From Saccharothrix longispora (lineage in GTDB: Bacteria; Actinomycetota; Actinomycetes; Mycobacteriales; Pseudonocardiaceae): 64,000 nt of DNA. The notes beneath the pieces are model-generated. The model was not told the origin of the DNA and made no database searches. It saw only the letters and a list, made by a program, of their open reading frames with translations. The translations under genes and the position numbers were made by a program. Location: contig NZ_NSDM01000003.1 of the NCBI RefSeq assembly GCF_030852425.1, forward strand, positions 496,001 to 560,000, written 5' to 3'. This document shows, piece by piece, positions 14,559-56,729 of this stretch (position 1 is the first letter of the stretch; the number at the start of each line of letters is the position of its first letter).

Positions 14559-16115
14559 ATGACCCTGAGGCGGTTCGGCGTCGTCGCGACGGCCGTGTGC
14601 GCCCTGGTGTTCGCGATCGTCTGCCTGGTCGTCTCGGGCGCGCTGGACCGGCCCGCCTCCGTCGCCATCGACAAGTTCACCCAGCTCGTCTTCTCGGTCG
14701 CCGCGATGGTGTCGTACTGGCGCGCGGCGCGGCGGCGGCGCGGGGTGGCGCGGCGCTGGCGGCTGTGGATGGCCGCCTCGATGGCGAGCCTGGCGGTCGG
14801 CCTGTGCGTGTGGATCTGGGGCCAGGTGGTGCTCGGCGTGGCGCTGCCCTCGACGACGCTGGCGCCGATCGGGTTCGTGCTGGTGCCCGTGCTGGGGCTG
14901 TGCGCGGTCCTGGTGCTGGCGCACGGCGGTTCCGGCACGCTGCCCGGCCACCGCAGCCGGTTCGTGGTCGTGCTGGACGGGCTGATCGTGGTCGGCTCGC
15001 TGTTCGTGCTCACGTGGGTGTCGCTGCTGGAGTCGATGGTCCGCGCGTGGGCCACGTCCGGTCCCGGCTTCGCGACCGTGGTGGCGCACCCGGCGCTGTA
15101 CCTGGTGATGCTGGTGGTGCTGCTGGTGTCGTCGTGGACGCACCGGTCGGTGCGGCAACTGCCGGTGCTGTTCATCGCGCTGGCGGGCCTGGCGCAGTCG
15201 GGGTCCGGGTGGGTGTTCGCCTACCTGGTCAGCAAGGGCGCCACGGCCATCCCCACGGCCGCGGACATGGGGTTCATGGTGTGCCCGGCGCTGTTCTTCC
15301 TCAGCTCGATCGCGCCCGGCGGGACGGCCCGGGAGCGGACCGGCGCGACGCGGCTGCGGGCGGGCGAGCTGCTGCACCTGCTCGTGCCGTACCTGCCGAT
15401 GCTCGTCACCGGCCTGTTCATCGTGGTCGGCACGGCGACGGGCGTGCGGCTGAACCCGTTCGAGATCTACGTGGGCCTGGGCGTGGTGCTGCTGGTGATC
15501 GCCCGGCAGCTGCTGACCCTGATCGACAACGTGAAGCTGCTCGACCAGCTGCGGGAGAGCCGGGAGCGGCTGCGGCACCAGGCGTACCACGACCCGTTGA
15601 CCGGGGTGGCGAACCGGGCGCTGTTCCGGGAGCGGCTGGACGCGGCGCTGGCCGGGACGTCGCCGGTGGTGGTGCTGTTCATCGATGTGGACGGCTTCAA
15701 GGACGTCAACGACAACTTCGGGCACGCCGAGGGCGACGCCGTGCTGCGGGTCGTGGCGGCGCGGTTGCAGGCGTGCGTGCGGTCGCAGGACGTGGTGGCG
15801 CGGTTGGGCGGCGACGAGTTCGGCGTGCTGGTCGACGGCTACCCGCAGGCGCCGGAGGAGATCGGGCAGCGGGTGCTGGACGCGCTGGGGGCGCCGCACG
15901 CCACGGCGTCCGGCACGCACGTGGTGCGCGCGTCGGTGGGGGTGTCGCACCGCGAGGCGTTCGACCCGTCGTTGACCGCCGACGACCTGCTGGGCAGCGC
16001 GGACGCGGCGATGTACACGGCGAAGCGGCTGGGCAAGGGAGTGGTCGTGGTGCACGGGTCCGTCGAGGCCGACCTGGAGACCGATCTGGGGGCGGAGCGC
16101 GCCGGTGACCGCTGA
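14559..16115 (+). CDS. Membrane diguanylate cyclase (GGDEF)
   Basis: A 518-residue protein predicted to make cyclic di-GMP. About ten hydrophobic segments fill residues 5-325, with no recognised sensor domain, followed by a short coiled linker ([21 protein letters not shown] seen in part) and a GGDEF domain. The active-site motif GGDEF is intact at residues 417-421 and an inhibitory I-site RxxD (RSQD, 408-411) lies five residues before it, so product feedback is expected. No EAL domain is fused. It is divergent from ruvC and overlaps the following cupin gene by 11 nt. Confidence 0.92.
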
Positions 16116-16551
16116 CGAGGTGATCGAGCTGCTGGGCCTGGCCGAGCTGCCGGTGGAGGGCGGCTGGTTCGGCCAGTCGTGGCGCTCGGTGGAGGCGTCG
16201 GCGATCCACTACCTGCTGCGGGAGGGCGAGTTCTCCGGCGTGCACCGGCTGGACCGCCTGGAGGTCTACGCCCACCACGCCGGTTCGGCACTGCGCATGC
16301 TCCTGCTGCACCCGGACGGCGAGGTGACCACGCCCGTGCTGGGGTCGGACCTGGCCGCCGGTGAACGCCCGCAGGTCGTGGTGCCCGCGGGCGTGTGGCA
16401 GGCGTCCGAACCGGCCGGCCCCTGGTCCCTGGTGGGCACGGTGGTGGTGCCGCCCTACACCGACGACGTCGTCACGTTCGGCGCGGCCGACGTCCTCGCC
16501 CCGGCGTACCCCTCGCACGCCGACGCGATCCGCCGCCTCTGCCGCCTCTGA
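16105..16551 (+). CDS. Cupin superfamily (DUF985-type) protein
   Basis: A 148-residue single-domain protein matching the DUF985/cupin_5 pattern: [13 protein letters not shown] at the N-terminus, [29 protein letters not shown] across the cupin core, and [12 protein letters not shown] with a final [11 protein letters not shown]. Function is unknown; some relatives act on sugars. GTG start inside the end of the diguanylate cyclase gene with an 11-nt overlap, so the two are coupled. The stop codon TGA is also the first three bases of an intergenic repeat element. Confidence 0.85.
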
Positions 16552-16700
16552 CCCGCGAGTCGTGCGTTCGAGCCGGGCGAGTCGTACGTTCGAGCACTCC
16601 GTGTTCTTTACCCGCGAGTGAAGAACACACGGGCCCTGAACCTACGACTCGCGGGTCCTGAACGTACGACTCGCCCGGGTTGAACGCACGACTCGCGGGG
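16552..16700. repeat. Dispersed intergenic repeat element, copy A
   Basis: Two forward and three inverted ~22-bp units (core GAGTCGTRCGTTC) flank a centre with GAGTGAAGAAC that can fold as an imperfect hairpin. The element exactly fills the space between the stop codons of two convergent genes; TGACCC at the left and GGGTCA at the right are shared with those stops. The same element recurs at 28441, 46861 and 56241. Confidence 0.85.
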
Positions 16701-17204
16701 TCAGCCCATCGTCTTCTGGCCGTCGATGGTCTCTCGGATGATGTCGGCGTGACCCGAGTGCTGGGAGGTCTCGGCGATCACGTGCAGCACGACGGTGCGG
16801 ACCGACCACGACGCGCCGGCCTCGAACCACGGGGCCACGGGCAGCGGGTGGGCGGTGTCCAGGTCCAGCCCGGCCAGGGTGCGCTCCGTCGCGGCCGCGG
16901 TCTCCGCGTAGTCCGCCAGCAGGCCGTCCAGGGTCTCGTGCGGCAGCATGCGGAAGCCGTTCTCCCAGTCGGCCTCGACGCTCTCCATCAGCTCGGCTCC
17001 GCCCACGGCGAACCGCAGCCAGCCCTCCTCGACGGTGCGGACGTGCTTGACCAGCCCTCCCAGGGACAGCTGACTGGCGGTGGGCGTGAGGCGCGCCTGC
17101 TCGTCGGTCAGGCCCCGGACGGTGTGACGGAGGAAGCCCCGGGCCCTGGCCAGGACCGCCAGCAGGTCGGTCAGCTCGCTCGACGCGATCGCGGTGGTGC
17201 TCAT
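16701..17204 (-). CDS. DinB/DUF664 family protein
   Basis: A 167-residue four-helix-bundle protein of the DinB/DUF664 type, a superfamily that includes mycothiol- and bacillithiol-dependent transferases. Metal-ligand histidines fit GGLVKHVRTVEEGW and the C-terminal ETSQHSGHADIIRETIDG, the most diagnostic stretch of DUF664. Its reaction is unknown. Start ATG preceded by GGAAGG. It is convergent with the cupin gene across repeat copy A. Confidence 0.85.
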   Translation of the reverse strand: MSTTAIASSELTDLLAVLARARGFLRHTVRGLTDEQARLTPTASQLSLGGLVKHVRTVEEGWLRFAVGGAELMESVEADWENGFRMLPHETLDGLLADYAETAAATERTLAGLDLDTAHPLPVAPWFEAGASWSVRTVVLHVIAETSQHSGHADIIRETIDGQKTMG

Positions 17205-28440: not shown

Positions 28441-28640
28441 GAACCGCGAGAGTCCAACCCCCAGGCCCCGCGAGTCGTACGTTCAGGACCCGCGAGTCGT
28501 ACGTTCAGGTCGCGTAAGTCGAACGTTCGAGACTCACGGGTCCTCTACTCGGGAGTAAAGAACTCTCGAATCCTGAACTCACGACTCGCGCGACTTGAAG
28601 GTTCGACTCGCCGGGCCTGGGCGTACGACTCGCGCGGCGG
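28441..28640. repeat. Dispersed intergenic repeat element, copy B
   Basis: Four forward units (the first degenerate; two are identical CGAGTCGTACGTTCAGG) and three inverted units flank a centre with GAGTAAAGAAC. It lies between the tandem ROK and LacI genes and ends immediately before the lacI operator. Confidence 0.85.
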
Positions 28641-44244: not shown

Positions 44245-47000
<2,756 letters not shown>

Positions 47001-56240: not shown

Positions 56241-56390
56241 CCCGAGAGTCCCACACCCGGGTCGCGAGAGTCCGACGCTCAGGCCGGCCGAGTTCTACGT
56301 CCAGGACCTTCGAGTTGTCGACTCGTGAGTGAAGAACTCCCGGCACCTGGCGTTGGACTCTCGCGGCCTGGGCGTTGGACTCTCGCGGGG
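56241..56390. repeat. Dispersed intergenic repeat element, copy D
   Basis: Three forward units (more divergent, GAGAGTCC type) and two inverted units (GTTGGACTCTCGCG) flank a centre with GAGTGAAGAAC. The element fills the gap between the stops of two convergent genes precisely, with TGACCC and GGGTCA edges as in copy A. Confidence 0.8.
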
Positions 56391-56729
56391 TCAGCTGGCG
56401 GCGAGGAGGTCCTCGTCGGTGGTCAGGGCCAGGCCGTCCACCCAGCGGGCCACGGCGGACGGGTCCGGGCGCACCGGGCCGCGCAGGCGGGACAGGACGA
56501 ACGGCGGCTCGGCGCTGTCGCTCTCGACCGCCACGGCCCAGCCGCGCGCCTCGTCCCAGAGGAGGGCGACGTCGCGGTCCGGGAAGCCCGGCAGCCGGCC
56601 GTCGAGCGCCAGGTAGGCGCTGCCTGCCTGCACGAAGAAGGAATCACCCCGAAGCCCCAGTGCGCGCGTCACCTGGGTGACGTACGCGTGCAGGGCGCGG
56701 ATCTCGTTCTCGTCGAACTCCCAGTCCAC
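56391..56729 (-). CDS. DUF6292 family protein
   Basis: A 112-residue cytoplasmic protein: ALHAYVTQVTRALGL, AYLALDGRLPGFPDRDVALLWDEARGWAVAVES (in parts) match DUF6292, a small actinobacterial family of unknown role often near transcription factors. GTG at 56729 is chosen because a GGGGG site precedes it and because the upstream extension contains a rare TTA codon and no family similarity. Confidence 0.75.
   Translation of the reverse strand: MDWEFDENEIRALHAYVTQVTRALGLRGDSFFVQAGSAYLALDGRLPGFPDRDVALLWDEARGWAVAVESDSAEPPFVLSRLRGPVRPDPSAVARWVDGLALTTDEDLLAAS

Follow-up and report, generated by a model that had tools for sequence, protein, structure and literature searches.

A 64,000-nt stretch of the Saccharothrix longispora genome (contig NZ_NSDM01000003.1, positions 496,001 to 560,000; hereafter the window) carries four intergenic arrays built from a short tandem unit, which raises the question of what these arrays are and what placed them there. 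We consider it probable that they are the dispersed repeats of a two-part system, the other part being a single-copy gene for a putative AbiEi-Vsr nuclease, itself bracketed by arrays, that would drive their copying, homogenisation and spread.

The dispersed unit and the gene between its copies

All four window loci contain a 13-bp core, with consensus GAGTCGTACGTTC, recurring at 22-bp steps. With up to two mismatches, the core has 17 matches in the window, compared with a mean of 1.74 and a maximum of 7 in 100 shuffled sequences. The spacing is strict: at up to three mismatches per unit, 12 same-strand pairs are exactly 22 bp apart and none are 18, 19, 20, 21, 23, 24, 25, 26, 30 or 33 bp apart, while a reversed-core control yields no same-strand pair in the window. 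Across the same genome (G000, an assembly of 54 contigs totalling 8.28 Mb) there are 191 units with at most one mismatch against a single match for the reversed control, 227 unit pairs spaced by 22 bp (at most two mismatches) against none, and 21 matches to the 11-base pattern GAGTRAAGAAC against one. A same-species genome contains eight clusters (at seven loci) in the 400 kb examined, a density from which we estimate that there are probably some 100-170 arrays per genome. The initial annotation of the window had supposed hundreds per chromosome; the genome-wide family is real, and its size falls at the low end of that figure.

One G000 array, outside the window, is interrupted by a gene for a 304-amino-acid protein, with repeats on both sides. 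By prediction, this protein fuses a DNA-binding N-terminal region matching AbiEi to a C-terminal nuclease domain with a Vsr/I-Bth0305I-like fold. Pfam DUF559/MTES_1575 is assigned to 30 of 32 homologs, a catalytic-like motif, with residues D231, E242, D244 and H249, is retained in nearly all 32 when aligned, and members are named in databases as 'DUF559 domain-containing' or 'endonuclease domain-containing protein'. Wherever Saccharothrix genomes have a match (11/11), they have a single gene. The initial annotation did not recognise the family among REP, BIME, CRISPR or MITE elements and suggested a bidirectional terminator, a nucleoid-protein site or a non-autonomous mobile element, with a transposase with matching ends to be sought. 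The window arrays fit the last idea and a gene with matching ends does exist, but its predicted product is a nuclease of the Vsr/homing type and no transposase.

The flanks of the nuclease gene bear genome-specific units, and these predict the repeats found elsewhere in the same genome. Three flank units were searched as exact patterns over 39 genomes, where reversed controls gave 0 or 1 match per strand. The unit GTGTCATGCRYTC, taken from the flank in G215, has 173 copies in G215 and at most four in any other genome; GTGTCCCCTCYTC, from G030, has 57 copies in G030 and at most two elsewhere; and GAGTTGAGCRYTC, from G032, has 174 copies in G032, 42 in G242 (where the nuclease gene is also flanked by it), 12 in G127, 7 in G159 and at most two elsewhere. 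The dispersed unit matches the flank unit of its own gene in three of the three genomes tested.

The state of the gene points in the same direction. Among 17 Saccharothrix genomes, nine have an intact gene, G110 has one without E242, D244 and H249, G224 has a remnant and six have none. Many units, taken as nine or more copies either of the exact core or of the unit flanking that genome's own gene, are found in six of the nine genomes with an intact gene and in none of the eight where it is dead, remnant or missing (84/12376, about 0.007, computed by hand), although a genome lacking the gene has no flank from which its own unit could be read and any family of such units counted. At the level of the family, all eight genomes with at least nine cores have a homolog.

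These observations make it likely that the nuclease spreads or maintains the repeats. In the mechanism that we propose, the AbiEi-like N-terminal region would recognise the repeat unit and the Vsr/I-Bth0305I-like C-terminal domain would cut or nick it. Repair would then copy from other units or arrays, changing both unit number and sequence, and might at times seed new sites. The window arrays would be non-autonomous members of the system, tolerated chiefly behind stop codons, where inverted arrays could fold into long hairpins and may also protect or end transcripts.

Two side observations concern the gene itself. In G110 the catalytic-like motif has been lost and a deletion follows it; no arrays adjoin the gene (L171) and the genome has no exact unit, so this is a natural dead-enzyme case. 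In G000 the neighbours of the nuclease gene are EspG and GGACT-like genes, and an AbiEii nucleotidyltransferase toxin gene is not adjacent.

Position and folding of the arrays

The arrays of the window are as follows, with units counted in register and degenerate units included.

Array A, 16552..16700: plus units at 16557, 16579 and 16601, minus units at 16616, 16638, 16660 and 16682 (3 plus, 4 minus; inward); occupies the whole gap between the stop codons of a convergent gene pair
Cupin_5 (DUF985) gene, 16105..16551, plus strand: ends immediately before array A
Mycothiol-S-transferase / DinB type gene, 16701..17204, minus strand: ends immediately after array A
'Conserved centre' of array A, 16601..16628: innermost plus unit (16601-16613) and innermost minus unit (16616-16628), in 22-bp register
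Array B, 28441..28640: plus units at 28450, 28472, 28494, 28516 and 28538, minus units at 28553, 28575, 28597 and 28619 (5 plus, 4 minus; inward); lies between a ROK-family gene (stop 28433) and a same-strand LacI-family gene (start 28677)
Array C, 46861..46995: minus units at 46872, 46894 and 46916, plus units at 46933, 46955 and 46977 (3 minus, 3 plus; outward); flanked by two minus-strand genes
Array D, 56241..56393: plus units at 56246, 56268, 56290 and 56312, minus units at 56327, 56348 and 56370 (4 plus, 3 minus; inward; degenerate); convergent genes around it

All four loci of the initial annotation, with their units of about 22 bp, are upheld, and reading in register agrees that the units of A, B and D point inward and shows those of C to point outward. 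The separate conserved centre, GAGTRAAGAAC, does not survive as a distinct part; it is the innermost minus unit as seen on the plus strand, one member of the innermost unit pair, and it keeps the 22-bp register of its arm in A and B, while array D has one 21-bp step.

Arrays gather at gene 3' ends. In 1.22 Mb of G000 sequence a simple codon-based caller gave 1217 genes (88.6% coding). The regions were chosen for strong units, so the following counts describe cluster context there and are not genome-wide rates. Of 62 clusters, among which each arm at the nuclease gene counts as one (the cluster rule overlooks array D), 34 lie between convergent genes, 25 between tandem genes, one between divergent genes and two in called coding sequence; of the available gaps of at least 100 bp, 67 are between convergent, 204 between tandem and 154 between divergent genes. 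The first core lies a median of 5 bp from the nearer stop in convergent gaps; in tandem gaps its median distance is 8 bp to the upstream stop and 86 bp to the downstream start. The unit variants of G215 (11 convergent, 7 tandem and 2 divergent of 20 clusters) and G032 (11 convergent, 8 tandem, 2 divergent and 2 coding of 23) follow this trend as well; G030, with just five clusters (1 convergent, 4 tandem, 0 divergent), has no convergent excess.

The stop codon itself was considered as part of the element. A TGA stop was rejected in this role, being found at 45/54 array-adjacent stops and 917/1167 overall. TAA is enriched (8/54 array-adjacent stops compared with 34/1113 others; p = 4e-4) because a unit variant, GAGTCG-TAA, supplies a stop; at three loci (L114:9282, L115, L132) a gene ends at GAGTCG-TAA inside the first unit, the stop codon being given by the variant GAGTCGTAA.

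Such placement is what would be expected if the arrays were host-serving 3'-end elements, either bidirectional terminators or transcript stabilisers, with the hairpin under selection and the AbiEi-Vsr protein a bystander or a hairpin processor. This is the strongest of the alternatives, yet we think it unlikely. As RNA, the arrays fold better than each of 200 shuffles (z -12.6 for A, -8.9 for C, -9.9 for D and -4.0 for the first 149 nt of B, the part that was folded), and across 39 arrays the arms match better within an array than between arrays (0.816 versus 0.759). However, the order of units in an arm has little effect (0.816 versus 0.801 shuffled, p 0.007), and the strong arm covariation that single loci had suggested was weak on testing; folding may simply follow from the inverted arrangement of units and not from selection on pairing. 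There is no T run, and a terminator-like site, in which a run of T would follow a GC hairpin, is found at none of the four window arrays; the bidirectional terminator proposed earlier is a candidate role with the strong fold but without the tail. Single-direction arrays are also common (22/62 clusters). Above all, a 3'-end function leaves unexplained why the repeat tracks the nuclease, and its variant, across genomes.

Turnover, and the case against a driving nuclease

Another genome of the species, G652, aligns with G000 at 96-99% around seven comparison windows, where nine arrays could be compared, each arm at the nuclease gene being counted as one. Neither strain lacks any of the nine, and in every one the number of units differs between the strains, mostly in steps of 22 bp, which indicates that array content turns over in place. 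Across the genus, an RsgA-like gene (L111) has a downstream array in 7 of 20 genomes: three of five with an intact nuclease gene, none of seven in which it is dead, remnant or absent, G652, and three of the seven without a status call. The contrast between three of five and none of seven (Fisher 0.045) is to be read with the proviso that the downstream neighbour differs in some genomes, so that an 'empty' site can also mean a rearranged one.

Two insertions or deletions were seen beside this comparison. The G652 ortholog of the L112 array contains an insertion of ~0.9 kb resembling an insertion sequence, absent from the other strain, and ~280 bp of G000 beside a degenerate array (L110:18101-18480) are absent from the same-species genome.

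Several facts weigh against a nuclease that drives the repeats. Cutting, binding and mobility are predicted for the protein, and the gene occupies one locus throughout the genus. No empty site or new insertion was present among the nine arrays compared between G000 and G652, no target duplication was identified, and slippage alone can also alter tandem 22-bp repeats. Three genomes with an intact gene (G088, G195 and G206) have few units, between 1 and 4 each (the three counts are 1, 2 and 4), near chance level, in a count of the exact core, and G159 and G195 have an intact gene without an array at the RsgA-like site. With homologs in 186 of 249 genomes of the family, co-occurrence at that level is weak, and some homologs fail a test for inverted flanking repeats (9/33 loci in the family, 12/26 in the class and 6/12 in Nocardioides and A. 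suaedae), which are real misses.

A driving nuclease must also be set against a regulatory explanation, in which the AbiEi-like protein controls itself through the adjoining arrays, the dispersed arrays form a regulon or act as decoys, and the nuclease domain serves another purpose. AbiEi antitoxins bind repeats beside their own gene to control themselves, and the AbiEi-like region, the arrays that flank the gene and the covariation of unit and protein among genomes all accord with this. But the arrays sit at 3' ends and not at promoters, as the single divergent cluster and the distances in tandem gaps attest, the fast turnover of units is unlike that of conserved operators, and the catalytic-like motif has been kept by nearly all aligned homologs; we therefore regard a purely regulatory role as improbable. 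The least credible alternative is that the repeats lie next to the nuclease gene by chance, either as tandem repeats of an ordinary sort or as ones mobilised by an undetected transposase, such as a REP-associated tyrosine transposase (RAYT), the enzyme that goes with repetitive extragenic palindromic (REP) sequences (no search for a RAYT was made). It gains something from the abundance of homologs in the family, but is very improbable given that all three flank units predicted genome-specific dispersed families, that inverted flanks are widespread at homologous loci and that paralogs within one genome have differing units.

Homologs beyond the genus and comparison with REP-RAYT systems

The association of gene and repeats extends beyond Saccharothrix. 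The tandem pattern also matched three Nocardioides species, with eight of nine loci inward by eye and one single-direction, and a homolog was found in all nine of the named genomes searched. The homologs of N. jensenii and N. carbamazepini have their own units on both sides; two paralogs with differing units occur in N. carbamazepini, as they do in A. suaedae. In a sample of the class, 159 of 394 genomes have homologs (E 1e-20 or better), and many of those in other orders lie between differing inverted repeats. For the inverted-flank test each locus score was compared with the maximum for 150 other G000 genes, a null from cross-pairs having been dropped because orthologous loci read in opposite strands spoiled it. 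The score exceeds that maximum at 24/33 loci in the family, 14/26 in the class (one of which, L282, belongs to the window organism's own family) and 6/12 in Nocardioides and A. suaedae, with a control that is not matched to the base composition of other genomes; three of 29 class loci and two of 14 Nocardioides and A. suaedae loci were too short and were left out. Where flanking repeats outside the family were read, they recur with a period between 21 and 38 bp or make up long hairpins, and the homologs in g47, a genus of the same order, adjoin long hairpin repeats of very different sequence (L293, L285, L296, L295, L298).

The nearest known analogue is the REP-RAYT arrangement, including its REPIN form. 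Two papers (PMC2817692, PMC3116915) describe RAYTs as single-copy genes that lie between inverted REPs and coevolve with their repeats, with several enzyme-repeat pairs possible in a genome. The present system is alike in having a single-copy enzyme gene between inverted repeat copies, many dispersed extragenic copies (only two of 62 clusters were called coding) and covariation of repeat and enzyme, and, as described there, several pairs may share a genome. It differs in its enzyme, a RAYT being a Y1 tyrosine (HUH, IS200/IS605-like) transposase and the protein here a nuclease of predicted Vsr/EDxHD type that carries an AbiEi-like region, and in its repeat; a REP has a GTAG-type head beside a short imperfect palindrome, while the GAGTCGTACGTTC unit lacks a GTAG head and forms a 22-bp tandem array.

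Other systems share single features. EDxHD/Vsr homing endonucleases of the I-Bth0305I type have the fold predicted for the catalytic domain, but the gene here is free-standing, without an intron or intein; it sits between genes at a conserved locus, has repeats on both sides and is linked to their dispersed copies, its cutting activity being a prediction. The AbiE toxin-antitoxin system shares the AbiEi match, but here that region is fused to a nuclease domain and the neighbours in G000 include no AbiEii. Mycobacterial interspersed repetitive units (MIRUs) are likewise small intergenic repeats that abut stop codons, differing in unit and length, and no nuclease gene bracketed by them is known to us.

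Among the matches listed from open-licence PubMed Central articles, no description of an AbiEi-Vsr nuclease paired with repeats was seen, and no match to the text of the motif or of a second repeat was found there. In the same collection, no title or abstract opening on DUF559 concerns repeats of this kind, nothing relevant to repeats between convergent genes was among the matches listed, and the available part of PMC3733652 mentions no actinobacterial REPs. Since the enzyme is not of the RAYT kind and no pairing of this nuclease with repeats was seen among these matches, we set the system apart from REP-RAYT; to a reader who groups together all enzymes that come with repeats, it would be a variant of REP-RAYT. 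The best reading is of a system that resembles REP-RAYT but has an unrelated nuclease at its base, an enzyme that would cut and spread its repeats.

A wider proposal, to which we give an even chance, is that actinomycetes independently evolved a counterpart of REP-RAYT, in which each AbiEi-Vsr gene would be master of its own repeat population, cutting, copying and keeping its members alike. Much of the repetitive DNA between genes in the class, so far unexplained, would then be due to this family, and a homing-type nuclease, once captured, would have become the resident manager of non-coding repeats. The association ties a common, unexplained actinobacterial protein family to a common, unexplained class of intergenic repeat, and does so predictively, from the flank unit of a gene to the dispersed repeats of its genome. 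If causal, it would be a second enzymatic solution to the REP-RAYT arrangement, by an unrelated enzyme, and would make the enzyme's gain from its repeats testable. It also provides fast-changing 22-bp markers within species and a natural set of pairs of nuclease and recognition unit.

A final observation concerns the surroundings of the nuclease gene. Within 350 bp of the gene, a DnaA-box-like motif, TT(A/G)TCCACA, occurs at 19 of 22 loci outside Saccharothrix (the 22 being L167, L169, L170 and L173-L191), in at least two copies at 13 of them. Over the same distance it is found at 7/26 loci in the class, at 3/12 in Nocardioides and A. suaedae and at none of the 11 Saccharothrix loci, and it is absent from the farther flanks; a link to replication is possible.
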